From Ophiura sarsii (taxonomy: Eukaryota; Echinodermata; Ophiuroidea; Amphilepidida; Ophiuridae), in the NCBI GenBank assembly GCA_035610835.1, contig CM069441.1, forward strand, positions 82,507,848 to 82,571,847: a DNA stretch of 64,000 nucleotides, given 5' to 3'. The notes beneath the pieces are model-generated. The model was not told the origin of the DNA and made no database searches. It saw only the letters and a program-made list of their open reading frames with translations. Below are positions 5,185-43,014 of this stretch, in pieces. A program made the position numbers and the translations under genes. The stretch's first letter is position 1. Each line of letters begins with the position of its first letter.

Positions 5185-8100
5185 ATGAGATTAACTACAG
5201 TGCCCATATGCAATATGCAGTACTTCGTTGTGTGTTTATGTGCAATGTTAGCCGGTGCCTTCTCCTGTAAGTAATGCCAGTAAGGTGGCGAGACCATTAA
5301 TTACAAACCCAACCGACCAATAATTTTCAAATCTGAGATTATTTTCTATAATGTTACACATTTAGGGGAGGATGGGGCAACTGGACCGGTTAAGCATATT
5401 TCATGATATAAAAGCTTAAAGCTCGTGTAAATATTTATGGAATTGCTATGAAAATATCACCCATGGAACTGTTTACATATAACATATAATCAATGTTAAA
5501 AAATATCCAAACAAAAGGCCAATTACCACTAACTAAAAACTTTACTTGGCACGGTCCAGTTACCCCATCGTTGGGGCAACTGGTCCTATATGTTCCAACG
5601 GTTAGAATACACAGAAATCATTGATTGACAACACGGTTACTAAGCAGTATTTTCTTTACAAACTCATTTCCATATTATTTAACGTGTAAAAATGATACAG
5701 GTCTCATGAAACCCATGTTTTATACAGTTTTCGTGGTTAACGTGTAAAACGCAGTAATACTAATGGTGTACAAAGCAAGCGCAATTTTCGACTGCACGTT
5801 TATTAGATAAAACGGTATGAACCTAGTTAAATGGTTACATGGTTGTGATATTCAGACGCCCCATACATTTATCTATATATACCACCTTTCTTTAATGATT
5901 TTATTTACTTCATATAATCATCATTTAGTACTTATAACAAACCATCTTGATATTTAGCCAGCTTTTCATGTTACAGGGGAAGTTAGTCAATATGACAATG
6001 ATGACCCAACGGTTGATATACACAAAAAGCAGTGGATAAAATACATAAATCATGATATTTCGTCATAGCAAATATCTTTACAGACACCATTCAAAATATA
6101 ATGAAGATGTAATTCATAATACCGAGGTTTTAAACCATTCTAAAGCAATTTTATGTCATATTGTAATCCTTCAATATCAGAAATAGTGGTATTAGACCCG
6201 AAATGCCCCAAAATGTCTAAGAACTTGAAAGAATGTGAATTATTTCATATTCTATTCACATTTCAATACCGAGTCATGTTTTATTGACACTAACAACTCA
6301 TTTTCAAAATGAATTTTACAATTTTGATTAAGTTTTTGCAGGCGGTCCAGTTGCCCCACACCCCTTCGGACCACTTACCCCAACAAATGACGTAGCACTT
6401 TGTCGAGATGAAACGTTATTAAAACACGCCTGTGACGTAATACATGTTACGTCAAAATGTTTTAAAACATACCACCATTTGTCATAATAATCAATAACTC
6501 CAATACATTTCAGAAAAAAGGGAAAACTGCATTTTTGTTTTTAGCCATTACACAGATTTCTGTAGCCAGTGAGTATCTTTGAATTCGCAAATATTACGGC
6601 GTTCGGGTCCTACAAGTAGACGAGTGTCTTTAGATAAATAAGAAATGGTGTACTTTGTTATTTGCAAATTCATGAACTAATAACTCTACCAAATGAATAC
6701 CCGTGATAATGATTTAAGTTGAAGCATTCTTTAAATGATAATATTGATCGGAAATCCAAACCACCAATGTCCCAAATTAGCAATATGCGCCATTTTACGG
6801 TCATTCCAACCACAACCTATGGTTTTAATCATATTTCGGAAAGTCCCTAAGCACACTACAATATAGCACCCATCAAATGCAATATGCACCTAGTATCTTT
6901 AAGACGACTGTACTGCATGTATATATTTACTGTTGCATATCTGTCAATCATATAAAGTACATTAAACATGATCTAAACCCATCTTCATATATCGCCCATA
7001 CTATCTGTGAATTTTCAATCAGTCACTCAAGGAGTTAGCTTCAAAGATATGGAGAAAAATCACATGTGTCAATATCCTAAAGTTCCAAATGTTTTGGATT
7101 GTAGAAGGTAAAGATATATGTCAAATATCAACAAAAGTCGTATTGTTCAAAAGAAAGCAGTATGCCCATACAATTACAAAGTCCTTCATTTCGGACCACT
7201 TGCCCCACGGTCCAGTTGCCCCATATTCCCCTACCGTATTCTTGAAAGGATGTTTGGATATGACATATTTGAAGAAGAAAAAATGTGGCCATCATTAATT
7301 TACCTCATTCATCCTGTTGCGTTTCCTTCATATCTTGCTCTTCCATTCTCCTTTCCCATTGTTTCACAAAGTCCGGGGATGATCTGAGTATCCAAATCAC
7401 TCTCTTTGTCTTTGCTTCCACAAACCACACATAAAATCATTCTTAATTCATCCGCATATTTGTTTCCTGCTAGCACAGTCTGTTTCAAAGTTTTAATTTC
7501 ATCGTTTAAGTTATACAATTATACCACTCTCAGTTGATTTGATTTTCACGAAAATAAATTTACTTCCAGCTCTCATCATAGTATCCGACTTCAGTCCTCC
7601 CGCTATTTACACTGCGCAAATGGGACCAAAGTTGAACTTTAAAATGCTCAACATAGATGGTGGTCGACGAAATATATCGGCACCCACTTGTGTGGATTAC
7701 GATCCTGTGGATAAAAATATATACTGGACGCAGTGGAGTAGCAAATGGACTGGGGCTGGTCTCATAGCAAGATGTGATATGAATGGAAATGGATATCAGG
7801 AGTTGGTTAAGGAATTGGATTGTAAGTGTAATACAATGCCATCTATTATCTAAATTATCAGGTAAACAAAGACAACAATTCAAACAGACATATACAGACA
7901 GACACGACCGACAGACAGACACGACCGACAGACAGACACTTAAAGACACCATGACAGACTGACTCACATGTATTGCATGTCCCCCTCATGCCTTACGCTA
8001 CTGGTTCTTTCATAAAACGGTATGATACTATTTTCTTGATTTCAAGTCTCAGTTTCGCCAATTCATACAACGTATCTTGTTTTTTCTCCTATATGCTAGA

Positions 8101-11100
8101 CGCGGTGGGCATAGCTCTTGACGTGCAAGGACGCAATATGTACTTTTCGCATGAGGGGATGGCGTTGGAGAGAGCCAATCTGGACGGAAGTGGTAGGAGG
8201 GAAATCATCAGAGAGTTGCCAACAATTGGATTCCACGTATTCTTTGATCCCATTGGAAGGTGTGTATATAATAGGAGATGATTATTTATTATTATTATTA
8301 TTATTATTAATCTGTACTTATATGGCGCTCTACAAAGAACACAGCGCCTTACAACAGGCAAAAATGATGCAAACACACAAACACAAACACCTAACATTTA
8401 TACAAATGGGTTTTCAACAAACGTTTAGTTTGAAAACAGGCACAGACACCGCCTCCCTCAACTGAATTGGCAACTCATTCCAGAGCCGTGGAGCGGCAAC
8501 AACAAACGAATGATCACCAGCTCTCTTTCTTGAGCGCGGAACCGAGAGCCTTGTTGTATCAGACGAGGAGCGAAGTCTGGGCCTATTCTCAACCATTAAT
8601 GTGTCGCTAAACAAGGTAATAAGATCACACAGATAAGGTGGAGCGACATTCATCATACATTTGTACACATACAACATTATTTTGAAACATATACGGTCCT
8701 TGATTTGGAGCCAATGTAAGGAATGCTTGAGATCAGCAGAACACCTGTCCCGTCCACACGCAAAAACCAGCCGGGCTGCCTTATTCTGGAGACGTTGCAG
8801 CCGTTTGAGGTCAGCTTCACGAGCGCCAAACAAAAGTGAATTGGCATAGTCTAAGCGGGACAGGACAAGTGCTCTAACGGCATGATGACAAGCTTCTTGG
8901 GTGATGAAACGGCGTATCCGCCACAAATTACGAATTTGAAAATTAACAGTTTTACACAAATTACTAATTTGGATGGACATACCGGTATTCATTGAACCAT
9001 CAAATATAACACCAAGGTTTTTTACAGAGATGGAAGGCTTGATTGATGTACCGTCAAGCTTCACTTGGATATGAGACACTGACCTCGAAACTCTAGGGCT
9101 AGCAACAACAAAAAACTCAGTTTTATCTTGTTGATGATGACTATAACGACGACGACGATGACGATGACAACGACGACGACGACGACGACGGCGACCACAA
9201 CCACCACGACCACGACCATGACGACACGGCGACCACAACAACGACAACGATGACGAGTATGACTTCCACGACGAAGATGACGTCTGCGACGACGATGACG
9301 ACATTTTGGACATTAGAAATCGGCACTTCTCCAACATTAACAGACCACACGTTTAAGAAATAATGCTGTTTAATTGGTGATTTATATTTCTCTTTTGTAA
9401 TGTTCGATACAGGCGAGTGTGGTGGTCTGACGCAACAACATCTTTAATTGAGAGTTCAAAAGTAGACGGCAGCAACAGAACAGCACACGTTAGCGGTCTT
9501 CAATACCCAAGCGATATATTTATCGATGGTAAGGACAAACAAAGAAGGTTTGTCTCAGAAACATTTTGCAAATAAGCTAATTCCTGTGTTTTTGTTTTTG
9601 TTTAAATTTAGAATAAAAGCTATGACGTATGCGATTTTTTTGTTGTTGTTGCTTATCCAAAAAAATTTCAACATTTAAAAAAAACCCCAAACCTACGCGC
9701 CGTAGCTCATTTCACATACCAATGCGGGCGTGCTTCTGAGACAAACACTTCTTTGTTTGGCCTAAAGGTATGCTTTTTATCATTCTATAGAGAAACCGCC
9801 CGATAAATGACACCCGACTTCCTTAAATTACCGTACATATCTCCAAAACACCAATGTATTCTTATCTTAATATACGAGAGGCATTCAATATATGCCGCCA
9901 ACACCCCTGTAAAAACTGAAATAAATAGAGTTCATCCATGAAACCTCCACAGTTTGTCAAAGAACTCACATCCAGCATCCACACACTGTCAAAGTCGACG
10001 TATCAAATCCCTTATAAAGACTTCCAAGTACTTCTATTCAGGTATATGCTTGTCACACTGTTGGATGGCGCTTCAAACCTCACTTCTACCACCATGGCGG
10101 ATTCCTGAAGGGTCTGGCTTCATCTTTAGGAACAGCCAGGGATCACTTGTGGTCAAATCTAGACTATATTAAAGATGTGGCAAGATGCGAATGCCATTGA
10201 CGTCGACAAAATCTTGCACAAGTGCAAATGTGTGAGCTGGGGCATTTTCATGGGGAAGGAAGATTTCATTCATTCTACTTGTATCATAGTACTTCTGGAC
10301 CCAAGGCAAAACTTTGGTGCAATAGTATTTTCCTGACACTGGTGTGCCCTTTGGAGTTGGAATTGGGGTCATAATTCCATATGCGTCGAAGAGAATTGTG
10401 TATCAAACCTTATTGGTGCTCAAGTTGCGATGGGCAATGGTTGATATTTTGCTGTCTTTACATATATATACAACCTTTGTTTTCTCTTGGTTTCTTTGTT
10501 ATAGTAGTGTACCCAAAAGTCTCATCACCAGACAATTTAGCAATCTCCACCCGCTTGTCTTTTTGCCCATGAGTCAGAATGTGAGGTACCAGTCTGGTAC
10601 ACAGTTTCCTCATTTCAAGATGCTGCTTCAAGATGATCTAAGCACTTCCCACTGAGATACCAACTAAAGCTGCCATATCTTCGACACAAAGATCTTGGAT
10701 GGACTTCCTTGCCTCTCTGAAGCGGTCAGCCCTGTCGGCAACTGTCTCAATGAACTCTGTGTACATTTGCGTGAATATTGGTGCTGTTGTTGCCAAGCTT
10801 TGCCCGAATCTTTATGCATGCTCTAAACTCGTCTTTCAAATTTCCCGACATTTTGACCCTAATTCTAGGTAGTGCCCAAAGGCCATGGTACTTATAGTAC
10901 TGTTATTACGTAATAGGGATAACCCACCTGTTTGAAAAAATGTCGGTGACGAAAGGGAAAGACATGTAGTGTAAGTATCCAAAGTTTATTCAATAGAAAT
11001 ATGTCACGGTTCACATATCTTAAATGGTTGATGCAGGGGCGGCGCCAATGGGGGTGGGGGAAAATGTTGCCTTTCCAAAAGTTAAAATAAATTGTAAACG

Positions 11101-14100
11101 AATTGTTGTTAATGAATGTGCGAACGCGCTAGCGCGGACAGGGATAGGACATCATAGGGGGGTCCCCTGCCCCACCCCCTCCCATGTAGCCCCTGGGTAA
11201 TTATCGAATGTCCCTCGTACAAGGTTGATGATGAATACCACATTGATATGGTTCGATTACCTTCCCAAACGTCACAAACATTTTAATCGTTATCTTTACA
11301 CACAAAGAACGATTTCATGACTTTACTGACTTCATCAACGGTTGGTGTTGGTGTCTGAAATCCCACTTATCATATAAGTGTTGAGCATCCAATATATCAC
11401 ATCATTTAAAACATTTTTTTCTTTATACTCATAGCGCGACAACTTTACTTTTCCGATTTCGGCACCGACAGGATTTCTACGTCATCGTTGAGGGGTCAAA
11501 ACCTCCGTACTTTATACCAATACCCGTGGGTGTCCACCGAGACACTGCCAATGTCCATCGGCTTATACAAGAATGAGATCTACATGGTGAACAGAGATCA
11601 TCCGAAATTACAGAAGATTCCGAAAAATATCAAAGAAGGTCAAGTGATTGTACCGAGGGATGTTGGAAATGTAGAGTTTGGATGGCCTTCGGGTCTTTAT
11701 ATTGAACCAGGTAGGTACATGTAGTTCGATCACTTGGTCGTCTGGGTCGGGAAAAACGAATTGAACTAAGACACTTGCCTGCTAAATTTAAGGAGTGTAA
11801 TAAAACGGTATCAGTCAACTTGATAGTGCAGCAATCCTCCACCACGTGCACTATGACATTCAGCATGGATTTAATCCTTATTAAAACCACTGAATATTAA
11901 TGATTCAATTTGATTTCATTGTAAAGTACAACTAATAAAGTTAAAATCCTGAAAAGATGAGGAATATCCATCATCAATTAAGGAAAGTGTGACCAATAGG
12001 CGAGTCAAACCATGTTGTAATAATATGCACAATGGCAATTAACACAGTAAACATGGTAAAGTAACATGGCAGTGGAAGATTACATTACTTAAAAGGCTAA
12101 AAGGGAAATTATTCTTTTTCTTATCATGCAAATTTATTCTTATTCTAATCATCCTTATGGCTTACAAGTTACAAGTCCAATTTCTAATGTCCTTCTCTGC
12201 CAATGATTGGTATAAACACTGACATCATTGGTGCTTTCCTACTACAACTTTCCTACATGCTAAGGCATTCTCATGAGAACACTTAGCAACATTAGTGTAG
12301 ATCCCATTGTACAGACTAGTAAATGACATGGTTTACGCAAATTATGCTAGCGGTCTTATTTTTTATTGAATTAATCTCAAATTGTCAGAATATTATCAAT
12401 CTTAAAGGTAGTTGATCCGATCACATTTTCGTAACACAGAATTATTTCAAACATACGGAGATTTTCATATCATATGAAAGCTCGTATTTTTCTCATCATC
12501 ATACTGAAATTTGACGGCCTAATTCGGTATAATGACAGAGAAATCGACGAAATAGCGTTGAATTACCGCGAATGGTGGTTACCACCGATATAGTTTGTGT
12601 ACTACTCAATGGGTACAGTTCACAACATCTTGTGCGTCTAAAATAAGAACCATAATAGCTATGCATCTCAAATTTTGGGACACGACGTTTTTAAGGATGA
12701 CCTTTCATGTAGAATAGAAAACTTCAAGTTGAAAATCGGAACATCTACCTTTAACTGGGCTTTGCAAAGACGGTGAACTGGTTATGGTCCACTAGTTTTG
12801 AAAAGATTAAAACCATCATGACATTTTTTGATACACCCTGTATAAAGGGGTCAAAAAAGTAAGTCCCCCCTAAAATTTGATCAAGTTTGTTTACATAACT
12901 CTTTTGAGAGATTGAAACACTTATGAAAAGCAAAAACACTTTGCTACCCATAACAAATTTCTCAGTTTCAATATTATTATTACTTTTCCCAAAATAGTCA
13001 CATTTCACAAAAATGATGTTTTAAAAAAAAGTGGAACTTTTCAAGATTCTATACGAGTTTGTATGCATACATCCATCCACAATAGGGCGTTTTGAGAGAT
13101 TGAAACATTTACGAAAAGGAAAACCCTTGGCTACCATGCGCACCACAAAGTTTCCCCTTTTCAATATCATATGTTTACTTTTCCCAAAATAGTCACATTT
13201 CACCAAAATGATGTTTTCCGAAAAGTGGCACTTTTCAACGATAGAGGGAAGTTATTGATGTTAATGGTGGACCCTGTTTGGTTAGTCATGCATGAAATAA
13301 AATCATTTTATTTATAATTTTACTAAGAACCAGCTAAAGAAAGAAAATTCTTTCTTTTAATTGAAAATAAAGACAATTTAAACTAATTTTTAACAGTACT
13401 GGAGACACTGTTGTAGCCTTCTTGCATACGATTTTGAAAAGTGCCACTTTTTCTTATAACATCATTTTTGAAAAATGTGATTGTTTTGGAAGAAGTGAAA
13501 ATGCCATTGAAAAAACCTTACTTTTGATGGGTAGCCAAGCGTTTTCACTTTTTATAAACGTTTCAGGTTTTTTAAAACGTACATTTGTGTGCATAACTAG
13601 TATTCTCTTTCTTAATAAACCCTTTAGCCCTTAGTGTTATCACTACTAACAATTACCTTACGTTTAATGCAACAGTAGCGACGATGCATCCTGTAACGAC
13701 AATACTGTCATCTACACCTGATGCCACCACTACTTCAGGAACCTTAGATGATCAGAGGTTGGACAATTATAGTAAGCTTGGTATAAGATGAATAATCAAT
13801 CAATAAACAATCAAATGACCGATAGGTGGGTATTCTTTTGGCCCAATCCTCATATAATGATTATAAGTAACAATCGCCTCACACTTGTCTAACTCTTGAT
13901 ATACCCGTATATCAGTTGTATGACGAACTGTACGACCAACCGGAGAGGTGCGTCGTGGGTGCGTCATTTACCACCACATTCTTGACGCAGGGTACGTCAT
14001 GGACAGCCTTTGGTCCGACACAATATTGACGAATGTGTGCGTCAATGTCAGTCACTTATCACCAGGGTGCGTCACAGGGTACGTCTTCATGCGTACAACA

Positions 14101-16128
14101 AAATACGAACATTATATTTTACATGGCAGGCTCTATTCGATCACCACCAACCAGGCTTTACTTTTTAGATATGCGACTTCCGAAGTGCAAAAATCACTAT
14201 TCCAATACTCTCACCGCGTGTTCAGTGCAAACAAAATGCTTGCGTAAAATCACCCTCACGTATAGGACTGGTATGTGCCGCTCTTGAAGAAAGCATTGTA
14301 TACGTTTTAAGAAGTATTTTCATATAATTATATTGCAATCCACTTCAGTCAACAATGATGTATGATGGTGGGGTGCGTCATTTGAGACAGTACTGGTCCG
14401 TCAGAATCAATCAATTTTGCGTCACAAGGGTACCGTCATTGTATGGTAAAGATCCGCAAATGTGTGACACATGACATGGGTGCGTCATTTATTAAAAAAC
14501 ACACCTAACAACAACACCGATTCTACCGGATATGTGAGGTGGCCGCACGCTTCTACAAAACATGGAATCCGCGAAGGCATGTACTAAGGTAACGGATGTG
14601 AATGCCTAGGACTCCCATTGGTCACCGATTACCGTGTATTTGTAAAAAATATAAAAAATTGCTTTAATGTGCAAATGTGAATCTTTTCCATTTCCACGTC
14701 AGATGAAGTTTTTGCTATTGCTATCAGCGTCCCTATAATCGGCTCTATCATCATTAACATCGCTGTTTGTCTGTTATACTTCAAGTTCAAATCAGGGTAG
14801 GTGCTCAATTATTACAGATATTTGGCCCTACGTTATTTTACTCCGTTAGTGTCGAAGCGTTGTTATTTTGATTAAATCCTTTTTAGGTCGTTCGTAGGAT
14901 GGTAGGAGAGACTTTATGGCTGCATCATTCGTGTATGAGTTTATCAGTCAGTCTGTCAGTCTGTCAAACATTTAGTTTCCATTTTTTCCCCATTTCTTTT
15001 TCATACAAAGTCCAACAGTGACCTAACTTGGTAAAAAAGATGCAACATGGGAACCTTTATATGTCAATGAGGTCAAAGGTCACATATCAAGGTCAAAGTT
15101 CATCTGAGGCAAAGTTGTAAAATAAGCTGGAAGCATCAACAAAATGTCATTTCTTTTTTATTCAAAGACCGATTGCAACCAAATTTGGATCATACAGGGA
15201 ACATGGGAACCTTCATATGCCAATAAGGTCAACGGTTAGCAATCAAGGTCAAAGGTCATATGATTCGAAGTTGTAAAATCAGCTGAAAGCATAAACAATG
15301 ACATTCATTTTTCATACAAAGACCGATCAAGTTGTAAAATAGACCAACAACATCCAGAAATACAAAGAACGATTGGAACCAAATCCAATTGCAAACAAAC
15401 TTGGTTCATAACTGTAACATGAAACCTTCATATAAAATCATTGACTTCAGAATGCTCACTTAATGTAATACCCTTAAAGAAAGAAGACCTATACCAGACC
15501 GCGTCTGTATTTTTTTTACTTCAGGCTCTGCTGGTAATAAATATGTAAATAAATACAGTTTGTTAGCGACGACACCTCCCCTTACATCCACCCAGAAAAT
15601 TAAAGATGGTTTGTTTTTTTGAAATTGTTATCTTGCTCTATTATGTTAGATCCATATTCGAAACTATCCCGCAAAATGCAAACACATGTTTAATAGCTCT
15701 CTTGATATATCCACGATATACTAAAAACAGTTTCAAACTATTGTTCATTGAAACTATATACCTTCATGTACTGTCATTCGTACATTTTCATTTCGTACAG
15801 GAGTAAGTCGACTACTGATACAACTCCACCAGAGAATCCGGAGTCGGCTTACACTGGCTTAAATCCATCAACCATGAGTTACACGGCCTACGAAACGTAT
15901 GAGTATCTAAACAATGGCGCAGAGGAAACGGTAGATGTACCGCGTAGTAATAACATTCCAGACCAAACATACGCTGATCTAGATCCACCTATATCGATGA
16001 TCTCAAGCTATAGTACGTATCTGAGCGCGGATGATAACGCCATGACTGACACTAACACATGCCGTACTAGCGTTCTCTCGCCTACAGAAAATGCAGATTC
16101 GACTTACGATAGCGTGGACACAAAGTAA
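5185..16128 (+). CDS. Receptor 1: signal peptide, YWTD (LDLR class B) propeller, Thr/Ser stalk, TM, tyrosine-motif tail
   Basis: Eight exons read through in phase: 5185-5266, 7570-7821, 8100-8259, 9413-9528, 11435-11710, 13676-13771, 14703-14796 and 15801-16128 (stop TAA). They total 1404 nt, or 467 residues. Residues 1-27 form a hydrophobic signal peptide (MRLTTVP...LAGAFS). Residues 28-295 hold LDLR class B repeats such as KNIYWTQW, NMYFSHEG, RVWWSDAT and RQLYFSDFG, about the length of one six-bladed propeller. The usual EGF modules are absent. Residues 296-327 are a Thr/Ser-rich stalk. Residues about 331-352 are a transmembrane helix. The tail carries SAYTGL (Y376), YEYLNN (Y392, Y394), TYADL (Y416) and STYDSV (Y461). 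Every junction has GT/AG ends, and intron phases are mainly 1. It is probably a cell-surface receptor that signals through SH2 partners; the ligand is unknown. Transposons fill introns 1, 3 and 4. The tail ends earlier than in receptor 2. Confidence 0.85.
5363..7233 (+). mobile_element. Non-autonomous DNA element with GGGGCAACTGG termini (copy 1, in receptor 1 intron 1)
   Basis: The left end reads TA then GGGGAGGATGGGGCAACTGG, and the right end is its inverted counterpart ending ...ttgccccatattcccc then TA. This fits a TA target duplication. The same motif recurs in both orientations just inside the left end (about 5561-5593) and in the right half (about 6340-6375). No transposase frame is visible in about 1.87 kb. 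Copies lie at 16891-18734 and, inverted, at 52298-54158, with a truncated one at 258-1450. Confidence 0.85.
7885..7945. repeat. ACAGACAGACACGACCG short tandem repeat
   Basis: A CAGA/CGAC-type simple repeat lies in receptor 1 intron 2, directly after the second coding exon. It creates long spurious frames on the - strand. Confidence 0.8.
8262..9135 (-). pseudogene. 3' fragment of a CR1/L2-type LINE in receptor 1 intron 3
   Basis: Read on the - strand, a frame from about 9135 down to the stop at 8414 encodes the C-terminal part of a reverse transcriptase ORF2. Typical pieces are KTEFFVVAS, NLGVIFDGSM, SRLDYANSLLFG, LKRLQRLQNKAARLV, LHWLQIKDRI and APRLWNELP. The RT catalytic core is absent because the element is 5'-truncated. 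Its 3' end is 'GGCGCT...' followed by a (TTA)n tail at 8281-8312, as is usual for L2/CR1-like elements. It lies antisense to the host gene. Confidence 0.85.
9136..9310. repeat. GAC/GAT-rich trinucleotide repeat
   Basis: Degenerate (ACG/GAC)n and (GAT)n tracts sit immediately next to the truncated 5' end of the LINE fragment in receptor 1 intron 3. They give artificial poly-Ser and poly-Arg frames. Confidence 0.8.
9873..11219 (-). mobile_element. Degenerate mariner transposon in receptor 1 intron 4
   Basis: The left end TACGAGAGGCATTCAATA (from 9873) is the inverted match of the right end, which read on the - strand is TACGAGGGACATTCGATA, ending at 11219. TA flanks both ends. The length of 1347 bp is usual for mariner. 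On the - strand, about 10850 down to 9960, transposase pieces are recognisable: an N-terminal SGNLKDEFRACIKIRAKLG, then LPHENAPAHTFALVQDF, then IRILPHL. Stops and frameshifts are many, so it is dead. Confidence 0.8.
11034..11195. mobile_element. Short GC-rich MITE nested in the mariner
   Basis: The segment begins CAGGGGCGGCGCC and ends GTAGCCCCTG. Further inside, GGGGGTGGGG pairs with CCCCACCCCC, so it is a 162-bp inverted-repeat insertion. CAGGG termini are typical of hAT-derived MITEs. The flanks ggttgatg and ggtaatta match at only about five of eight positions, so the target duplication is weak. Confidence 0.4.
12890..13600. repeat. Two direct units and one inverted unit of a ~180-bp repeat in receptor 1 intron 5
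   Basis: Units near 12893-13050 and 13056-13240 share 'gagagattgaaaca', 'cttttcccaaaatagtcaca' and 'aaaatgatgttt'. A third unit at about 13415-13600 carries the same blocks in the opposite orientation, with 'aaaatgtgattgttttggaa' matching the Ca-rich strand. The inverted pair could fold into a long hairpin in the transcript. Unit 2 keeps only the flank 'agtattctctttcttgataa' near 40171. Confidence 0.7.
13935..14490. repeat. Cluster of TGCGTCA motifs in receptor 1 intron 6
   Basis: By eye, TGCGTCA or its complement TGACGCA occurs seven times, often as GGTGCGTCA, and near-matches such as GTACGTCA lie between them. The motif resembles ATF/CREB or Maf-type bZIP half-sites. The homologous intron of receptor 2 has about nine. 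It may be a diverged tandem repeat or a regulatory cluster. Confidence 0.6.
14985..15360. repeat. ~150-bp tandem repeat containing AGGTCA direct repeats (receptor 1 intron 7)
   Basis: Two and a part units share 'catacaaag.cc', 'acatgggaacctt', 'atatg.caat.aggtca' and 'caaggtcaaag'. AGGTCAAAGGTCA at 15070-15082 and 15246-15258, and AGGTCAAAGTTCA at 15090-15102, have the DR1 spacing used by RXR/HNF4-type nuclear receptors. The repeat recurs at 41790-42140. Function is not shown. Confidence 0.7.
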
Positions 16129-16174
16129 ACATGGAAAGTACCCATGCCTCCACCTGTTGAATTTGACACACATG

Positions 16175-16681
16175 CAAGGATACTATTAATTTTGGGATAG
16201 GAAAGTCCTATTCTAACGTACGTAGCGAAAACGGACCTTTTGCATATTTGAATAAATTATGATAATCGTCTGGAATGCGTCGGTGACCGGCGTATGACGT
16301 CAAATTTAGTCAGCATAGAATTGACTTTAGTCAGCATAGAATTGGTGGCGCTGTGCACGCGGTAGATTTACAGTACACACAGCTTGCTGTCAAAAATGAT
16401 ACTGACACTGAAGTTGGTTATCCAACTCCATCGGTTTTTGGATGAAATAATTTAGTTCCAACGTGTGATGAATTTTATGGGGTCATATAATCAAAATCCC
16501 GGGCAAAATCCGTTGTTACATTGAAAGCAATGGAAATTCAAAATTAACGCCCGTTCGTGTCTACCATCGTCTGCTACAATCACAGGGACAATCACGCCTT
16601 ATCGGTATAGCGCCATCAATTCTATGCTGACTAAGTTCAATTTAAAAGTGGACCCGATCGGCAAGCTCAGTGGCATACCCC
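16175..16681. mobile_element. 507-bp insertion in the ancestral tail exon of receptor 1
   Basis: Receptor 2 reads 'gacacacatggtggtgatg' without interruption. In receptor 1 the same sequence is split, with 'tgacacacatg' before 16175 and 'tgacacatg' repeated after 16681, which looks like a target-site duplication of about 9 bp. The insertion has no obvious inverted ends of its own, but it contains a nested MITE. It supplies an AATAAA at 16251-16256, which could serve as the polyadenylation signal for receptor 1. Confidence 0.7.
16327..16634. mobile_element. 308-bp MITE nested in the insertion
   Basis: The left end TTAGTCAGCATAGAATTG at 16327 is matched by the inverted right end ending at 16634. 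The arms extend through TGGCGCT and its complement. A 21-bp piece of the left end is repeated in tandem just upstream (16306). There is no coding content. Confidence 0.8.
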
Positions 16682-16731
16682 TGACACATGGTGGTGATGT
16701 AGCTACGGCTTACTACGCCAACATTACGTAA
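16682..16731 (+). pseudogene. Stranded C-terminal coding remnant of receptor 1
   Basis: This piece is nearly identical to the last codons of receptor 2 (THGGDVATAYYANIT and stop). In receptor 1 it lies beyond the new stop codon at 16126-16128 and the insertion, so it is not translated. Together with 16129-16174 it marks the original end of the tail exon. Confidence 0.85.
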
Positions 16732-16890
16732 TACCCTTATTGTCTACTCTCCAATGCTATAACTCCACAATCCCTTATTAATTACTGGAAAAAGTAGGTT
16801 TAACTATTTAAAAACGCTTCTTACATGTATGATATATCGTTGAAGAAAGTGTATTGAAGTGTACCACCGTCCTCAAGAAGTAACTATCCA

Positions 16891-19040: not shown

Positions 19041-19078
19041 ACAAATGCTAAACTTTTAAACTGGTTTTGGACATACAT

Positions 19079-26880: not shown

Positions 26881-26881
26881 G

Positions 26882-32488: not shown

Positions 32489-35400
32489 ACGAAATACTTG
32501 GCATTCGACTGTCGTACCCCTCGGCCCCCGACATACATTACAAAGGGAAGGTAAAAATCCAGATAAACTACGAACCCTATTGGTATGATATCTGCTACGA
32601 TGGGTCTGACGATGCTAACCACCAGTCCTGGAACCGCGCTGCAGCCACAGTAGCCTGCAGACAGCTGGGATTTCAAGCTGGTTGGAATGGATCTCGACAT
32701 GGCATTAGTTCTACATACACGTTCGAAGGATTTGTGTGCACAAACTGTAAGCATTAAAAGTGATGTGCCGTGAAGGAAGCATTTTAAGTCTAAAAAACTA
32801 AAAAGAAATTATTTTGATGATTTTTGCTTCAACGGAATTACCGTACCTCATGAAGTTGCCCAAAACATCATATATTATGACAAGGATAACTGATGAGCAA
32901 TCGTGCTTGATATCGCTTGAGGCCTTATACAACGGAATCAAGTTAGTTGATCTTGCATGATTGAGACTTCCTGCAGTGCATTCGTAGATGATATAATCTA
33001 CACGAAGAACGATTATAACATGGCTAATGGACAATAGGAGGAGTTCTAGCCTCATATACCGGTATTCACATAATGATTTTTTACTTAAAATCTATATTAT
33101 TAACAGAAAAACTGGGAAATTGAAATTCACGAGAGTTGGTATAAAAATACGTAACAAATTTTGTTAGTTAATGCAAATCTGATTTATATAACAATATGTG
33201 AAGATCGTTCAAATACCTTGGAGCCTGGATGAATACCACTGAAAAGGACATCAAAACACGCAAAGCAGCTGCATGGAGAGCTAGTGGCAAACTTACTCAG
33301 TTATGGACGGTCAAGTCACTATCCAGAAAGCTTAAAAAACGGCTGTTCATATATAATCAGTCCTCCTCTACGGATGTGAGGCATGGACAGTCACCCCTAA
33401 ACTAGTAAACAGCTGGACGGACGTTACACAGGAATGCTAAGAACCGTGTTCAACATCAACTGGAGCCTGCATGTGACAAATGAGGACCTGTTACGGTGAC
33501 ATTCCAAAAGTTTCGGATAAAATCAGAGAACGTAGAGCAATATTTGCCGGACACTGCTTCAGAGGGACCAATGAGCTTGTCTCCAAACTCATACATTGGA
33601 TTCCAAAACATGGATTAAGAAAGACCAGCGCTAACTCACATTGATATACTAAAGCGTGACACAGGATTGCAGGTACAAGAAATCTGGATCTGGATCTGGA
33701 AGATATTCTCAACGCTTCCTGATTGAAGCCAAACGAGAAGGTTGGTTGTGCGCATGGGTTTATTTAGTCTTTTTGTTGGTTACTTGTCGCAGTGCCTGGT
33801 TGGATGTGGTCTGTCACTGCTGCTTTGAATGGTTGCACTGTTTCGATGTTGACGATGTGTTCAGGGAGAGAGTTCCAGTCAGAAATTGTGTTCGGAAAGA
33901 AGGACTTCAGGTAGTAGTCACTTCTGCCTGTTAGTTTAATGTAGCTGCGCTTGTGGTTTGTGCGAGCTGATGAGCGGCGTGATGAGGCCGGATGTAAGAA
34001 CTTTTGTGCCGGGATGGCTACCTGACCCTGTCGTATCTTCTGGAGCATGGTTAGTCGTGCTATCTTCCTTCGGTCTTGAAGTGGTGCCCATCCCAGGTTG
34101 GTTAGCATAGATGTTACACTGCTGGTCCTGTCGTAGTCCTTGTAGACAAAACGTGCGCCTCTGCGCTGGATGGATTCGATTTTGTCCACTAGGTCAATAC
34201 AGCTATGTTGGAAAGGAAGATTTGAAGAAACATCGTGGTTCGGAAAAATCAAGTCAATTCAATGCAAATCTGCTGACGATCTTCGAAGTACTCGGAACGG
34301 TTTTATTTTGGTTGTTTGTATTTACCTCCCGCATTTCCTCTTTCTGTTAGCGTTGACGTAAAATTTGCAATTTGCACCAACAAAAAAGCTATGTATACGC
34401 TGAATACAGTTTAAGATTATCTGAACTAAATCTTAGAAAAGAATAAAATCCTATTCGGTCTTGGGGTGTACATGATGAAAGGAATGCACAATTTGTAATG
34501 TTATTGCTTTAAAACATCTTCACATTCTTCATTCACAGATTCGGCCCGATCTCTCAATGATTGTACCTATAACGATAAGGAGTGGCTAGGTTGCGGGACC
34601 GAAATTTCTATTTTGTATCATTTTAATCAAGATCAGGCGTTCATTGAGTGTTACAGTAAGTACGAAATAGTTCTTAAAAGAAATCACTTTAAAAGGGAAG
34701 TACTGGGACAAAGGATATATTTATATTTTTTGAGGAATTATGTTGTTGTCCAATCCAACCGCGGTACCACGATATTGTTTATTGGCATATTGGTTGATTA
34801 CACTATTGGAAAATTCTTCACAACATATACCCGACGAAAATTTTGTTACACAAAATGGGTAAAGAGTCATCTATTAATATTTGTAATACTTGTAATGTAA
34901 TTGGGTACACAGAACACATGCGAAGGGTTCAATTGATTTGAAAGCATGCAGAAACTGTCAGTTCTGCCAAATTAAGCTTTGTTTTTAAATGTTAAAAGTG
35001 CTATTTTTTGGGTACAAAACTTCAATAAATCTGACAACAAACTAATAATAATAATAATAAACAGTTCTTATTAAGCGCCCGTAACCAAGGTCTCAGGGCG
35101 CTTTACAAAAAAATACCAAAGTAGCAGCATTACTATTGCACAAAACATAATAAAAAGAGCAATTTAGCACACTAAAGGCAGTGTAAAAATGGTTAAAAGG
35201 CATAAACAAGTATATAAAAGAGTCCGATAAAATTGTCTCCCATTATCTACATAGACAATAACTACTGCGTAAAAAGATGAGTTTTCAAATTTTTCTTAAA
35301 AATGTCTATGGAAGATGCAGCCCTGACATGCATAGGTAAATTGTTCCATTCTGTATGAGTGGCCTCTATGAAGGATCGGCGTCCGTAGGTAGTACGTGGT

Positions 35401-36763
35401 CGAATTGAAGGGGGTTTGATCAAGTTCTGGGAAGAAGAACGGAGCGACCGACTAGGAGTGTAGCGAGTGATGAGGTCCGACAAATATGAAGGTGCAAGTC
35501 CATTGAGACACTTGTAAGTGAGCAGGTTGATCTTGAATGCTATTCTTTGGCGGATGGAAAGCCAGTGAAGACCGATCATGATCTCAGATATGCTGTCATA
35601 TTTCTTAGTACGTGTCACCAGTCTTGCCGCAGTATTCTGGATTCTTTGCAGCTTCATGATTTCAGAGTCTGGGAGACCGTAGAGAAGTGAATTGCAATGA
35701 TCTAAACGCGAGGTGACATAAGCGTGAACTAGTTTTTCAGTTGTATCCTGGTCGAGATAATGTCTGATCCTTCCGATACTTCTGATTGCGTGAGTTGCAT
35801 TCCGACAGATGTTATTAACATGTTTCTTCATAGTTAGTTGACTATCTATGAACACTCCGAGATTGCGGGCAGAGGACGTTGGTTCAATGGTCATGTCGCC
35901 AACCCTAATTCCAGATAAAGGCGTTGTCTTCAAGTTTTTTGATGTAACATGGATCACTTCAGTTTTGCTGTCATTTAACTGAAGCTTGTTGTGCACAGTC
36001 CATGATTTTATGTCATCAAGACACTGTTCAAGTTTTGAAACACAAATGTCTCTCTCTGATGGTTTCATGGAGTCAAACAGTTGTGTGTCATCAGCGTATG
36101 TAATACACTCGATGCCATTGGAAGCGGCTATGTCTTCGATCGGTGCACTATACATTGTGAAGATGACAGGTCCTGCTACTGATCCCTGCGGTACGCCGTA
36201 GTCCATTGGAAGCGTATCAGAGAGTGCAGTCTCAACGGCAACAGCTTGTTTGCGGTTTTCAAGGTAGGATACAAACCAGTTCAGTGCACTGTCAGTAATT
36301 CCATATCGCTCCTCCAGGCGCCTAATCAACACATGATGGTCTATAGTGTCAAATGCGGCTGAGAAATCTAAGAGAACAAGTATCGCCTCGTCGCCTCTGT
36401 CAACTGTCTGCAGGAGACCATTGCTCATCAACTATGTGGGTGCTGTTGCTAAACTCTGTATAAGTAAATCAGATATGGTAACCACCCAAATTTGCTATTT
36501 CTTTTCGATTCAGAATTAAGAATCGTAAAGTGCTTTATTGAACTTCCATGACAAACTGTCATAATATAAAAATGTTAGTATGAAGATATATTAACCCTAA
36601 CCCTGCAATATATTATGTTATATTTTTTTGATGCTATTTGAAGATAACATGTATGTTATGTATATATTTGTATGAAGAGAATAAAAATAAATAAAAAAGG
36701 TCGCTCAACATAAAAACCGAGAAAGGAAAAACAACAACAATAATAATAAAAATAATAATGATG

Positions 36764-36828
<65 letters not shown>

Positions 36829-39800
36829 TAATATTGGTATATTGGCATATTGGCATATTGGCATATTGGCATCTTGGCAATTTTAATTTTAGTTATATTA
36901 GTCCGACCGACAGCTTTGACTGAACAGTGTTCCAGGTAGAGGGCATGTTTCCTTTGTACAAGCGCAATACGAAAAAAAATGGAATTAGGGACCGTTCATC
37001 ATTTCTACCGGAGGAGGAGGGGGGGGGGGGGGGGGGGGGCGCGGTAGCTATAGAAGAAAGCAACAACCCAAAAACACATGACCCCCCTTCCCTAGATACT
37101 AAAAAGTTATGACCCCCCCCCCCCCCCCCTCTGGAATGTAGAAAAAAATTATGACTCCCCCTTTTTTTTTACACACACACGGCCTACAAATACAATTGAA
37201 GGGGTAGGTGCAATAACTTCAATTAACCCCTTCAATTATGGATATTTGAGAATACTATTCTTAAAAATACAATATATATATATATATATATAGCCTTACA
37301 TACAACAATTATATTACCAGAGTCCGATTTAGAGGGGTTTTACATGCAGAACTGCATGTAACTTTGGCTCTGTGCGTGCATGTAAATATTTGCCTGTGTG
37401 CATGTAAAATTGTGATATTCAGCCATTCAAAAAGAAAAATCAATTTTTCAAGGAAATATTGCTGTTGTGCAGGTAACTTTTATTTTCTAAATCGGACACT
37501 GCATGGGCATGTTCTCAGCATGGGCATGCATCGGCGTAGCTAGGTTTTGCATATTGGTGGGCGAAAATTAAACATTAACCGGCAATACTTTTACCGACTA
37601 AAAATGTGCGCGTATCCCGCGAAAATTTACTATTTTCCCATAATCGAGGTCTATCTTGGATTTAAATGCGCTTTAAAACACCGAATAGCGCTAGAAAAAC
37701 AGCCATTGTTCCCAATATTGAGGTCTATTTTGGGTTTAAACATGCTTTAAAACACCGAAAATCTAGTTTGCTCTTCTTGTCCGTCGGTCAGTTATTGTCG
37801 GTCTTAGGGATATTTTGCAAGTCTCAACTCAAACACCTACACTCAACTTACCTGCGTTGGAATACGCCTCATTTACTATGGTGATCATTAATACTTTATT
37901 ATGATACTCAAACCTCACCCGCTATAAATCACAGGTTCGAGTCAAAAACCCTTATATACATGTATAATATATAGGCCTATATACAAACTATTTCCCTCAA
38001 ACCTCTCCCTCTCGCTCGTTATAACCAGGTTTGAGTCAACACTCCTTTATAAATATTTTCCCTATCTACAATATGAAAGAATGAGCTAATTAGCACTTAA
38101 TTAAGCAACTAATTAATTAGATTTTTGGTGACAAATGATATATCATCCGATATGTGTGTGTTATCGATTGTAACACCTGCGTAGTTTGAGATGCCTTTAA
38201 TGTTCATGCTAAAACGAACGAACGATGAAATGTTCGCTATAAAACGATCGATGAAATGTTCATGATAAAATCCTCGCAAATCATCACGTAAAAAAAGATC
38301 GATGTATTAAAGCTGCGATGACATTTACGCGATACAAAGATCGACATTTCTGATCACTATTAAATACCAGAAATGCGTTCCATAATAATGTAGGGCAGTT
38401 GATATTGCGAAATGTGGTATCAACAATTGGTTATGTTTCCTCACTCAAAAAACAGGGAAAATGTTTGCAACGTAAAGTTAATACTTCAAAAATACAAATT
38501 ATTAATTGTGCCATATGTAGGCCTACACTATAATATTCCAAATGCTTTCCAAGTTTTGATCTGGATGTTCTTAATCAAAACATCAAAAGTAGATACTAAC
38601 TACAAAAGATGACCTTTGAACATCGTCTGAGAAACAGATTTGAGAAAAAAGTCTTTTGATGTTTTCGTGATATGGCTCTGTCGCGTCTGTTCACAAAAAA
38701 GTTAAGATCAATCTTAAGTTTACTTACAAACAGTGATTCTTTAATTATTTTGAAGTGAGGTTCAGATGCAGAAGAAGTATTATAGAACGCTACCTAAGTT
38801 GATATGAGCTTTATGAAGTAGGATTGAGATCTATAAACGAGACCTGGGCTCATTTTATAAATATCAACTCATGAATTTGTAAACAAAACTCTTAAGACGA
38901 GCTAAGTTATAAATTTACTTACTTTGCAGATCTCGCGGATACCATGATCCGTCTGCAACCATTGGACACTACTTCAGAGCCTCATGCTGGAAAGCTAGAG
39001 GTCATGTATCGTGGTGAATGGTACGACGTTTGCTATCGTGGCAACAGCAGTTCACATGACTGGAACATTCGTAATGCCAACGTGGCCTGTTACCAACTTG
39101 GTTATTCGCTAGGTGCTGTTCAAACGTCAATGTTAACCTCCAATCCCTTCATGAGAAGACATTTATCATTTGATGACTTTCGATGTAATGGAGGTAATGG
39201 TTATAATCGTAATAACAAAATTGACAGATTTCGTCGCCTCGTTATATTTTCAAATATTATTAACATCTCCTCCGAGAAATGCGCGGGAAAACATGTGGAT
39301 TTGAGTTTCATATCAAAGCACATCGTCTCAATTCGAACTAAACATTATTAGCTTTGGACCTTTTAATATTTATTTCCTGACGGTAGTTCCCACAAACCCT
39401 CCTGAAAAAAACCCAGGAGTCTTCACTCCCTGACAGTCATTTTCGGTCGATCTCGACCACACATGTTTGCTTGTATAGCTTGTATAAATGAATCTATCAT
39501 AAAACACTAAGAACCCCATTTTAAAGTGTTTGATTTCCCGCTCTCGCATTTTCATAGTTTTGTTATTACTCTTTTCCATTTTTCTGATACGATATAGATG
39601 AAGATAATTTGTTTTCGTGTTTCCCGGACCCGCCGAATGATTCTGAATGTGGAGAAGGCAATCAAGTCTTTATCGTCTGCAAAGGTGATGTTTAATACAT
39701 AATAATGCTATTAATTACTTAGGCATATGTAAAAATATCGTTAAATATATTTATATCCTTTATATTGTTATTTATGACGTGTTTCAAGCGTGTCTTTTTA

Positions 39801-42800
39801 GCTTGAATGTGGTTATTGACAGAAATGTCTGTTTCTTGAAGTAATCGAGTCGATGAAACACCATATTTAACTCTTAGTCAACTAGGGTAATATGTCTTCC
39901 CCGGTTGGTTTATTTCTTCACAGCTCAATTATAAATCATATATACGGAAGATTTTTTTTGATGATAAAGTCTGTGCCAGATTTCACAACGTCGTTCCAAA
40001 AACAAACGTGCGAAAATTTAAGTGGCGGGGAGGAGTAAGGGTAGACACGTTGTTGTTATCTTCACTTTGACAGAAACCAGTAAAAACGCAGGCATTGACC
40101 AACAAATTCTCAGAGGTTTTTTTTCACTGGGATTGCAAACGGTATTTTTAATGCACCCTATGCATAACCAGTATTCTCTTTCTTGATAAACCCTTCAGCC
40201 CTAAGTGATATCAATTACTAACAATCGTCTTACTTTTAATGCAGCAACAGTAACGATGATGCATCCTGTAACGACAATACCGTCATCTACATCTGATGCC
40301 ACCACTACTTCAGGACCCTTAGATGATCAAAAGTTGGACCATTATAGTAAGCATGGTATAAGATGAAAAATCAATCAATAAACAATAAATGACCGATATG
40401 TGGGTATCCATTTGGACCAATCCTCATTATAATGATTCTATAAGTACAATCGCCTCCAATTTTAACTGGTATTCTGTGCAATTAACTATTGATTATCCGC
40501 GTATCAGATGTATGACGCACTATACGACCCCCGGGAGAGGTGCGTCATGGTTGCGTCATTCACCACCACATTCTTAACGCAGGGTGCGTCACGGGCGTCA
40601 GTCACAATATTGACGATTGTGTGCGTCAATGTCAGTCACTTGTCACATTGGTGCGTCACAGGGTACGTCATCATGCGTACAACAAAATACGAACATATTT
40701 TACATGGCAGGCCCTTTTCGATCAACACCAACCAGGATTTATTTTTTAGATATGCAACTTCCGAAGTGAAAGCAATGCCTGCGTAAAATCACCCATCGCC
40801 ATATTACCGTTTAAATACCGATACCGGTGGATGGTACTCACGTATGGGACTGGTATGTGGCGCTCTTGAAGAAAACATTTTATACGTTTTAAAAAGTATT
40901 TTCATATAAAAGTATTTTCATATAATGATATTGCAATCAGAATCAATCAATTGTGCGTCACAACATTGACTAAGGGTACCTTCATTGTATGGTAAAGGTC
41001 CGCACATGTGTGTCATTACATTAGAAAGTGACGCACCTCGGTAAAGTGACGCACCATTTCCGGGGTCGAATAGTGCGTCATGCAACTGACATGTTCATGA
41101 AAAAACCTGTTTTATGGGCCCAACCTACCCATTTATTAAGAATGTTCAAAATATTCTTCTTTTTAGATTTTGTTGTAACGTTTGATTTTTGTTGTCGAAT
41201 TTATTTATCGAAAAAATGTGTGAAAATTCATTGACATTTCCTGAATTATTTAAACTCGCCCCATCCCCCCCCCCTAAAAAACCACCCACTCAACCACCCA
41301 ACAGCAACACCGACCCTACCGGATATGAGAGGTGGCCGCACTCTTCATTGAAGCCTACAAAACATGAAATCCGCGAAGGCATGTCATAAGGTGACGGAAG
41401 TGCATGCATAGGACTCCCATTGGTCACCGATTACAGTGTATTAAATTTGTACAAAATTAAAAAATCGCTTTAATGTGCAAATGTGAATCTTTTCCATTTC
41501 CACGTCAGATGAAGTTGTTGCTATTGCTATCAGCGTCCCAATAATCGGCTCTATCATCATTGGCGTCAGTGTTTGTCTGTTATACTTCAAGTTCAAATCA
41601 GGGTAGGTGCTCAATTCTTACAGATATTTGGCCCTGCGTTATTTAACTCCGTTAGGGTCGTAGCGTTGATATTTTGATTAAATCCCTTTTTAGGTCGTCC
41701 GTAGGAGACTTTATGGCTGCATCCTTCGTGTGTGAGTTTATCAGTCAGTCTGTCAGTCTGTCAAACATTTAGTTTCCATTTGTTTGTTTTTTCCATTTCT
41801 TTTTCATACAAAGTCCAACAGTGACCTAAATTGGTACAAAGATGCAACATAGGAACCTTCATATGTCGATGAGGTCAAAGGTCACATATCAAGGTCAAGG
41901 TTCATCTGAGGAAAACTTGTAAAATCAACAAATGTCATTTCTTTTTTATACAAAGACCGATTGCAACATAATTTGGATAATACATGGAACATGGGAACCT
42001 TCGTATGCCAATAAGGTCAATCAATGGTCACCAATCAAGGTCAAAGATCATCTGATTCGAAGTTGTAAATTAGTTGAAAGCATAAACAATGACATTTCTT
42101 TTTCATACAAAGACCAATCAAATTGTAAAATAGACCGAACAACATCTTGAAATACAAAGAACGATTGGAACCAAGTCCAATTGACTAAGTTCAATTGCAA
42201 CAATTCTGACTTCAGAATGCTCACTTAATCTACCCTTAAAACAGACGACCTATACTAGACCGCGTCTGTATTATTAACTTCAGGCTCTGCTGGCAATAAA
42301 TATGTAAATAAATACAGTTTAGCGATGACACCTCCCCTTACATCCACCCAGAAATTAAAGATGTTTTTTTGCAATTGCAATCTTGCTCTGTTAATGTTAG
42401 ATCCATATTCGAAACTATCCCGCAAAATGCAAAAACGTGTTTAATAGCTTTCTTGATATATCCACGATATACCAAAAACAGTTTCAAACTATTGTTCATT
42501 GAACCTATATACCTTCATGTACTCTCATTCGTACATTTTCATTTCGTACAGGAGGAGTAAGTCGACTACTGATACAGCTCCACCAGAGAATCCGGAGTCG
42601 GCTTACACGGGCTTAAATCCATCAACCATGAGTTGCACGGCCTACGAAACGTATGAATATCTAAACAATGGCGCAGAGGAAACGGTAGATGTACCACGTA
42701 GTAATAACGTTCCCTCACTTATAGAAAATCCAGACCAAACATACGCTGATGTAGATCCACCTACATCGATGATCTCAGGCTATAGTACGTATCTGAGCCC

Positions 42801-43014
42801 GAATGATAACGCCACGACTGACACTAACACATGCCGTACTAGCGTTCTCTCGCCTAGAGAAAATGCAGATTCGACTTACGATAACGTGGACCCACCTCTT
42901 AAGAATAAATCTACTGTCAATGCGCCAAGAAGTAAAGTACCCATGCCTCCACCTGTGGAATTTGACACACATGGTGGTGATGTAGCTACGGCTTACTACG
43001 CCAACATTACGTAA
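32489..43014 (+). CDS. Receptor 2 (5'-partial): two group A SRCR domains, Thr/Ser stalk, TM, tyrosine-motif tail
   Basis: Seven exons join in frame: 32489-32746, 34539-34655, 38930-39193, 39598-39684, 40251-40346, 41509-41602 and 42552-43014 (stop TAA). They make about 459 residues, entered in phase 1 from an exon not found. SRCR1 reads from IRLSYP through WYDICYDG, VACRQLGFQAG, FVCTN and GCGTE to FIECY. SRCR2 has WYDVCYRG, VACYQLGY, DDFRCNG, FSCFPDPP and FIVCK. Each has six cysteines and is split by one intron after the third, as known for group A SRCR. The stalk, TM (AIAISVPIIGSIIIGVSVCL) and tail are close copies of receptor 1. The tail has SAYTGL, YEYLNN, TYADV, STYDNV and a C-terminal YYANI. 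It is probably a surface recognition receptor; the ligand is unknown. LINE remnants, poly-G and (TAA)n tracts lie in its third intron. Confidence 0.85.
33190..33745 (+). pseudogene. Degenerate non-LTR retrotransposon RT C-terminal fragment
   Basis: Conceptual translation gives FKYLGAWMNTTEKDIKTRKA, then AAAWRASGKLTQLW and later RPALTHIDILKRDTGLQVQE, with intervening stops and shifts. This pattern is the usual C-terminal half of a LINE reverse transcriptase ORF. It abuts a second LINE fragment in the opposite orientation and lies in receptor 2's first intron. Confidence 0.7.
33764..34252 (-). pseudogene. LINE ORF2 C-terminal fragment
   Basis: The - strand frame reads DLVDKIESIQRRGARFVYKD, then SSVTSMLTNLGW, RRKIARLTMLQKI and SFFPNTISDWNSLPEHIV. 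These are typical of the post-RT region of jockey/CR1-like LINEs. It is open over about 150 codons, but the RT core is missing. A second LINE remnant, in opposite orientation, adjoins at 33745. Confidence 0.8.
35043..36431 (-). mobile_element. 5'-truncated CR1/L2-type LINE with open RT frame
   Basis: A 389-codon frame (36431 down to 35262) contains the RT core from motif A (LLDFSAAFDTIDHHVLIRRL) through motif B (GVPQGSVAGP) and the catalytic motif C (TYADDTQLF), then the thumb and C-terminal region (LQRIQNTAARLV, LHWLSIRQRIAFK, WNNLPMHVR). The endonuclease and first RT motifs are lost. The 3' end carries '...GGGCGCTTAATAAGAAC' and a (TTA)n tail near 35043-35060. It lies antisense in the intron between the two SRCR domains. 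The open frame suggests a fairly recent insertion. Confidence 0.88.
36738..36885. repeat. (TAA)n microsatellite and ATTGGCAT octamer array
   Basis: About 25 AAT units (36738-36832) are followed by five to six 'ggcatatt' units (36836-36880). Both give spurious poly-Ile or poly-Tyr frames. Confidence 0.9.
37018..37165. repeat. Poly-G, poly-C and T tracts
   Basis: A G run of about 20 nt near 37019-37039, a C run of about 19 nt near 37112-37130 and a second C/T run at about 37157-37168 lie within 150 bp of receptor 2's third intron. The G and C runs can pair with each other. Confidence 0.8.
37166..38929. other. Remaining intron before SRCR2
   Basis: AT-rich intron with a short (TA)n run near 37272-37291 and a ~75-bp imperfect duplication near 37640-37760 ('aggtctat.ttgg.tttaaa' and 'gctttaaaacaccgaa' twice). 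No coding frame or element end was recognised. Confidence 0.5.
40505..41085. repeat. Cluster of TGCGTCA motifs in receptor 2 intron
   Basis: About nine TGCGTCA/TGACGCA sites by eye, including two adjacent 'gtgacgcac' copies near 41028-41052. It corresponds to 13935-14490 but with some sites gained or lost. Confidence 0.6.
41790..42140. repeat. ~150-bp tandem repeat with AGGTCA motifs (receptor 2 intron)
   Basis: Partner of 14985-15360. AGGTCAAAGGTCA is retained at 41872-41884, while the other copies have changed to forms such as AGGTCAAGGTTCA. Confidence 0.65.

Follow-up and report, generated by a model that had tools for sequence, protein, structure and literature searches.

Predicted Ophiura sarsii receptors with a common stalk, transmembrane segment, and ITAM-like tail under unrelated YWTD and SRCR ectodomains

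Two predicted receptors and their common exons

We analyzed a 64,000-nucleotide stretch (the window; contig CM069441.1, C1:82507848-82571847) of the 1.57-Gb genome of the ophiuroid Ophiura sarsii, together with 100 kb on either side (positions outside the window are given in window coordinates, negative when upstream). The window carries two predicted receptor genes, Y2 and S1, in which homologous stalk, transmembrane (TM), and tail exons lie under unrelated ectodomains (i.e., a single YWTD propeller in Y2 and two SRCR domains in S1). Spliced in silico, Y2 is a single open frame of 467 amino acids (aa) in eight exons (5185-16128), position 5185 being the ATG of a signal-peptide-like exon. S1 is open across 459 aa in seven exons (32489-43014) from its first SRCR exon, and 43014 is the last base of its stop codon. 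Homologous exons occur in a second YWTD receptor (Y1), in a second SRCR receptor (S2), and in a gene on another chromosome-sized contig, C4 (the C4 gene). Signal peptides, and the glycosylphosphatidylinositol (GPI) ends considered below, are by-eye calls.

Y2:
5185..5266, + strand: exon 1, signal-peptide-like (by eye), ending in phase 1; homologous exons in Y1 (93% aa) and the C4 gene (85%)
7570..7821, + strand: exon 2, YWTD propeller (in silico splice; Y1 and C4 gene homology)
8100..8259, + strand: exon 3, YWTD propeller (in silico splice; Y1 and C4 gene homology)
9413..9528, + strand: exon 4, YWTD propeller (in silico splice; Y1 and C4 gene homology)
11435..11710, + strand: exon 5, end of the propeller with a phase-1 donor (in silico splice; Y1 and C4 gene homology; Pfam Ldl_recept_b)
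13676..13771, + strand: stalk exon, Thr/Ser rich, phase 1 in and out (pair of 40251-40346)
14703..14796, + strand: TM exon (pair of 41509-41602)
15801..16128, + strand: cytoplasmic tail exon with ITAM-like YTGL-x12-YEYL, to the stop (pair of 42552-43014)
16135..16766, + strand: remnants past the Y2 stop (16135-16172 and 16684-16766) of a longer tail end that S1, S2, and F1 (see below) retain

S1:
32489..32746, + strand: SRCR1 exon a (homologue in S2)
34539..34655, + strand: SRCR1 exon b, the exon most divergent between S1 and S2 (27/117 bases)
38930..39193, + strand: SRCR2 exon a
39598..39684, + strand: SRCR2 exon b
40251..40346, + strand: stalk exon
41509..41602, + strand: TM exon
42552..43014, + strand: cytoplasmic tail exon with ITAM-like YTGL-x12-YEYL

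The stalk, TM, and tail exon pairs had been placed correctly by a first-pass annotation of the window; their borders are AG/GT and their phases match. They had been described as near-identical, and they are indeed close, although the wording is slightly strong for DNA blocks that are 81 to 86% identical and for stalk/TM/tail peptides that are 83 to 87% identical. Pfam searches of the spliced proteins confirmed both proposed ectodomains: Ldl_recept_b in Y2 (E value, 6.4e-7; 30.2 bits against a cutoff of 21), with no LDL-A or EGF module beside the propeller at an E value of ≤1, and SRCR in S1 (E value, 7.2e-26; two stretches), for which SRCR_2 and a subthreshold TMEM154 match were also listed. 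Each S1 SRCR domain contains six Cys residues (counted in the sequence) spread over two exons, with extra half-exons placed at 34539-34655 and 39598-39684.

The common stalk, TM, and tail under unrelated ectodomains, arranged in tandem within a larger duplication as had been proposed, extend to an array of four receptors (i.e., Y1 and Y2 with YWTD and S1 and S2 with SRCR).

-76905 to -62061 (window coordinates): Y1, YWTD receptor
81612 to 93999 (window coordinates): S2, SRCR receptor

Homology extends across all four loci in the 5' flank and in the stalk-TM-tail part, while the ectodomain block differs between the Y and S loci: the Y and S tails are 83 to 91% identical, and the ectodomains belong to different Pfam families. 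Y1 has eight exons with AG/GT borders and an open frame, and the Y1 and Y2 tails stop early relative to those of S1, S2, and F1.

Further loci and the probable source of the YWTD head

Searching the genome with the TM exon returned eight matches, of which the six strong ones correspond to the four array receptors and to two loci on contig C17 (F1 and F2). The supposed pair of receptors is rather a family, with six TM loci and three ectodomain types seen. The third type is represented by F1 (locus L039), which carries two F5/8C (discoidin) domains (E value, 9.4e-55; pieces joined by hand) upstream of the stalk, TM, and tail. Between 40039 and 43050, S1 shares five blocks of homologous DNA with F1; the two genes have the same stalk and TM exon borders and match at 93% in the TM exon and 64% in the tail. 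F2 (L050) has F5/8C-like exons by eye, and its TM segment is known as a search match only. A genome search with the S1 tail returned 112 matching stretches (E value, ≤10) at about 36 places judged from their coordinates, mostly on C17. No clear head was found for the tail of interest in the stretch at C17:44.19 Mb (L046), where an FN3-like exon and another TM/tail were seen by eye, nor was a clear ectodomain found within the 5 to 6 kb read at each of C11 (L051) and C5 (L052); thus, a fourth head type is not shown. At 55.31 to 55.32, 59.45, and 59.55 Mb, C17 also holds tail-related open frames of 360 to 741 codons with many repeated tail matches, perhaps arrays of tyrosine motifs. Genome-wide, first-look candidates numbered 1,316 for SRCR and 1,704 for F5/8C (PF00754; 150 of each were scored), and both repertoires are apparently very large.

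The closest database relatives of Y2 are P0001 (326 aa, on a 1,659-base contig) and P0002 (329 aa, from the brittle star Amphiura filiformis and named LRP6-like), which consist of a signal-peptide-like start, one YWTD propeller, and a hydrophobic C terminus, with no tail. The C4 gene has a signal-peptide exon and four propeller exons that are 85 to 93% identical to those of Y2, and the product of its last exon resembles the end of P0001 (hydrophobic and then a stop; GPI-signal-like by eye). Over 293 gap-free columns, the C4 gene is 90.4% identical to Y2 and 89.4% identical to Y1, and P0001 is 77% identical to Y2 over 293 columns; the P0002 exons match the O. sarsii genome at ≤65%. A FastTree phylogeny of the five sequences joined Y1 with Y2 and then with the C4 gene, leaving P0001 and P0002 outside (support, 0.93). 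The DNA homology between the Y loci and the C4 gene extends into introns and has visible limits.

4469..4472: 5' chimera junction; receptor 5' flank homology ends at 4469, and C4 gene homology begins at 4472
11858..13590: 3' junction interval; C4 gene homology stops at about 11858, and S1 receptor homology resumes at 13590

At the 5' junction of Y1, flank homology runs to -77223 and C4 homology starts at -77209, such that the switch from receptor flank to C4 homology spans 2 to 15 bases. This abrupt switch and the GPI-like form of the C4 gene, P0001, and P0002 suggest that a GPI-type YWTD gene was likely captured by a duplicated receptor locus. Because the GPI-like form lies outside the Y pair in the small tree, we predict that the change ran from the GPI form to the receptor. 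Together with the four array loci and the third ectodomain type, this parent-like gene for the YWTD part goes beyond what the first-pass annotation had noted.

Tail motifs, divergence, and fold

The immunoreceptor tyrosine-based activation motif (ITAM) comprises two YxxL elements with 6 to 12 residues between them (PMC3528668); its consensus, YxxL/I(6-12)YxxL, includes the YTGL...YETL of the FcR gamma chain and the 12-residue spacer after YMTL in FcgammaRIIA, and ITAMs can also be inhibitory (PMC6433993). YTGL-x12-YEYL is present in all five of the close tails that were fully read (Y1, Y2, S1, S2, and F1). Y1, Y2, S1, and S2 each have two strict matches to the immunoreceptor tyrosine-based inhibitory motif (ITIM; SAYTGL plus STYDNV or STYDSV), and F1 has three (shuffle P, 0.004 to 0.034). 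Each of the five tails has four to six YxxPhi sites (P, 0.005 to 0.025), and none has an NPxY motif. The tail had been called ITIM-like; ITIM matches are present, but the ITAM consensus fits five of five close tails, and that description is therefore at best half the story. The tail fits an ITAM at least as well as an ITIM and, because YTGL-x12-YEYL fits the consensus in all five, we favor with moderate confidence an ITAM-like role in engulfment or activation. In a collection of 5.8 billion proteins, searches covering those of about 252 to 803 and 119 to 380 aa with exact 5-mers in common with the query found no relatives of the tail (0/352 and 0/126 candidates at an E value of ≤0.01).

The YWTD exons of Y1 and Y2 have a nonsynonymous rate (dN) of 0.019 and a synonymous rate (dS) of 0.112 (ratio, 0.17). 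Between S1 and S2, the ratio is 1.56 for the SRCR exons (dN, 0.088; dS, 0.056; alone not significant, P = 0.30) and 0.35 for the tail (P = 0.09), and the SRCR change counts differ from those of the tail (P = 0.019) and of the YWTD exons (P = 2e-5). S1 and S2 differ at 56/726 bases (7.7%) in the SRCR exons and at 189/3,953 (4.8%) in noncoding DNA, the latter figure being lowered by leaving out poorly aligned 40-column windows. SRCR1 exon b (34539-34655 versus 85012-85128 in S2) differs at 27/117 bases, compared with 8.4% in the flanking noncoding DNA and 4 to 5% in the other SRCR exons; a hypervariable binding face or gene conversion is possible there. We did not adopt positive selection on SRCR as an explanation: nonsynonymous divergence (8.3%) exceeds noncoding divergence (4.8%; P = 8.6e-4), yet this one exon supplies much of the excess, gene conversion is an alternative, and the noncoding figure is a lowered one.

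A structural model of P0001 (a relative of Y2, not Y2 itself), built from an alignment with 24 other sequences (25 of 112 database matches), has a predicted local distance difference test score of 87 and a mostly beta body between an N-terminal and a C-terminal helix. The 50 PDB matches listed for this fold are chains or complexes of LRP6, LRP4, megalin, LDLR, ApoER2, and nidogen (template modeling score by query length, 0.66 to 0.72).

Several other elements accompany the receptors. An open frame at 24321-25757 is TMEM26-like (E value, 1.2e-54), and DNA of this gene, in five copies, alternates with the receptors (the others lie near -87 to -86, -6 to -5, 63 to 65, and 118 to 120 kb). Three copies of a 1.9-kb repeat are present (5363-7233, 16891-18734, and, inverted, 54158-52297); they are 91 to 96% identical, and one sits inside the first intron of Y2. 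An S1 intron holds a reverse-transcriptase-like open frame of 389 codons (35265-36431, - strand, by eye), and a weak conserved group at 29990 to 30077-30122 upstream of S1, listed among the candidates of the scan described below, is not claimed as a signal peptide. A gamma-butyrobetaine-hydroxylase-like N-terminal exon lies at 54308-55027 (- strand; Pfam E value, 7.8e-8), and long tandem arrays with periods of about 212 and 426 bases occupy 110557-117212 and 143123-155274, downstream of the receptor array.

Head exchange, alternatives, and known receptors

We consider it somewhat probable that Y2 and S1 are receptors with a common stalk-TM-tail part under unrelated heads, that the YWTD head of Y2 comes from a captured GPI-type gene (now the C4 gene), and that the tail is an ITAM-like activating or engulfment tail. 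A cell-surface sensor was likely rewired, with its outer half swapped and its signaling half kept; the exchange of a recognition module suggested earlier is supported, with splicing and function as predictions. A copy of a GPI-type YWTD gene would have landed in a duplicated receptor locus, replaced the SRCR exons there, and shed its own GPI exon, and the YWTD exons would now be joined to the receptor stalk exon at a matching intron phase. Ligand binding by an SRCR, discoidin, or YWTD head may then cluster the receptor; the ITAM-like tail, phosphorylated by a Src-family kinase, would set off engulfment or activation through a tandem-SH2 kinase of the Syk or Shark type. With a shared tail output under exchangeable heads, each new head would redirect one conserved output. 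More tentatively, and short of what we would call probable, one phase-1 stalk-TM-ITAM cassette may have repeatedly captured unrelated heads (SRCR, discoidin, and an entire YWTD gene of the GPI type), such that the lineage rewires immune recognition by genomic head swapping and more heads lie among the approximately 36 tail-related places (C17, C14, C16, and other contigs).

Several observations weigh against these proposals. The chimeric receptors are known from genomic sequence, with predicted splicing, and the immune role is one that we infer. The signal-peptide exon of S1 was not found among the candidates listed from an upstream scan for exons that begin with ATG, encode a hydrophobic stretch, and end in a phase-1 donor (22 candidates upstream of S1 and 13 upstream of S2). 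The stalk acceptor of S2 was lost by a deletion (about 90960 to 91060, window coordinates), and an in-phase AG within the stalk exon would give an open protein with a shorter stalk. The base of the 5' junction differs between Y1 and Y2, which would need later deletions or two events, and dN/dS is higher between the C4 gene and the Y copies (0.42 to 0.46). When the interval separating the YWTD exons from the stalk exon was loosely scanned for any hydrophobic last exon in phase 1, a single weak candidate turned up in Y2 (at 12909, within a local repeat) and none in Y1. Among four loci with distant tails, one (C11) has both ITAM halves, one (C14) has the first half, and two (C17:44 Mb and C16) have neither. 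The ITAM count is reached by shuffles in 0.8 to 2.2% per tail, and these P values (0.008 to 0.022) come from related tails and from one of eight patterns tried. The same tail tyrosines also fit ITIM and YxxPhi motifs.

This last ambiguity leaves room for two other functions of the same chimeric genes. The YxxL/V sites might serve as ITIMs, recruiting SHP-type phosphatases and so dampening the activation of coelomocytes, in keeping with the strict ITIM matches in all five close tails; we regard this as unlikely though not negligible, as the region fits an ITAM, sharing its 12-residue spacer length with FcgammaRIIA and its initial YTGL with the FcR gamma chain (PMC6433993), and motifs alone cannot fix the sign of a signal. 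The tail might instead be mainly an uptake signal, in which YxxPhi binds AP-2 and the proteins are endocytic scavenger receptors without kinase signaling. SRCR, YWTD, and discoidin heads do occur in uptake receptors, and every tail has several YxxPhi sites, but these sites are contained in the ITAM/ITIM matches and therefore lend little independent support, and the close tails lack NPxY; we judge this function rather improbable.

Other alternatives question the genes themselves. That the YWTD and stalk/TM/tail exons of Y1 and Y2 are not spliced together, or that the loci are decaying copies, would agree with the purely genomic basis of their splicing, the early-ending Y1 and Y2 tails, the lost S2 acceptor, and the weak alternative last exon in Y2. 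It is nonetheless quite improbable in view of two open Y copies with correct phases, a YWTD dN/dS of 0.17, and the lack of a better-than-chance match to the C4 GPI exon in 264 kb around Y1 and Y2. Least credible by far is an assembly artifact of haplotypes or misjoined pieces: the 4.8% noncoding divergence of S1 and S2 could be allelic in a polymorphic marine animal, but Y and S differ over the whole ectodomain and have common flanks on both sides, a single 160-Mb contig carries the four receptor copies in alternation with TMEM26-like DNA, and F1, F2, and the C4 gene are on different contigs. The first-pass annotation had raised the possibility that one locus is an assembly duplicate; S1 and Y2 are not such duplicates, because their ectodomains are unrelated and a second copy of each lies farther along the contig.

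The head-exchange reading has counterparts among known receptors. In paired immune receptors (KIR, LILR, SIRP, and CEACAM), homologous heads are kept and the tails vary or oppose each other. Those genes are likewise tandem and duplicated, with tyrosine-motif tails, but the present loci do not have homologous ectodomains with opposing tails, and the logic proposed by analogy with them is reversed here: the tail is kept, and the head is exchanged. Group A SRCR proteins are defined by six Cys residues and a domain split over two exons, as in S1, although the S1 domains precede a stalk and tail that the protein searches did not find elsewhere. LDLR, LRP, and nidogen resemble Y2 in having a YWTD propeller (the best folds for P0001 being LRP6, LRP4, megalin, and nidogen); here, however, Pfam finds no EGF or LDL-A module, and the propeller is followed by a GPI-like end (C4 gene) or by a TM segment and an ITAM-like tail (Y1 and Y2). 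Single-chain ITAM receptors (FcgammaRIIA and Draper/MEGF10) are similar in their one TM span, cytoplasmic YxxL-x(6-12)-YxxL, and separable head and tail (PMC8092387). The heads here are SRCR, F5/8C, and YWTD rather than Ig or EMI/EGF, with no NPxY and a tail without a found relative; the EMI/Nimrod/EGF repeats of the Draper/MEGF10/CED-1 ectodomain were not encountered, as Pfam gives Ldl_recept_b for Y2, SRCR for S1, and F5/8C for F1. Megf10 and Draper have separable heads and ITAM-bearing tails, and head replacement redirects phagocytes (PMC8092387), which makes them the closest working model. Engineered phagocytosis chimeric antigen receptors likewise place a new head on an old engulfment tail (PMC8092387), a step that would here have been taken by evolution, with an inferred function.

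Among the matches listed from the open-license literature, we found no description of a YWTD receptor with an ITAM or ITIM tail or of this family. The main text of the report on the A. filiformis genome, an assembly of 1.57 Gb with 20 chromosome-size scaffolds, contains "scavenger," "lrp," "low-density," and "discoidin" 0 times each (PMC11310086). The locus provides a candidate natural head swap in which the parent-like gene, the acceptor locus, and the junctions are visible in one genome. It offers an ITAM-like tail with no relative found in the searched part of the protein collection, and a GPI-type protein likely became a signaling receptor by gaining this tail. With this family, the question of how animals that lack antibodies acquire new recognition specificities becomes testable.

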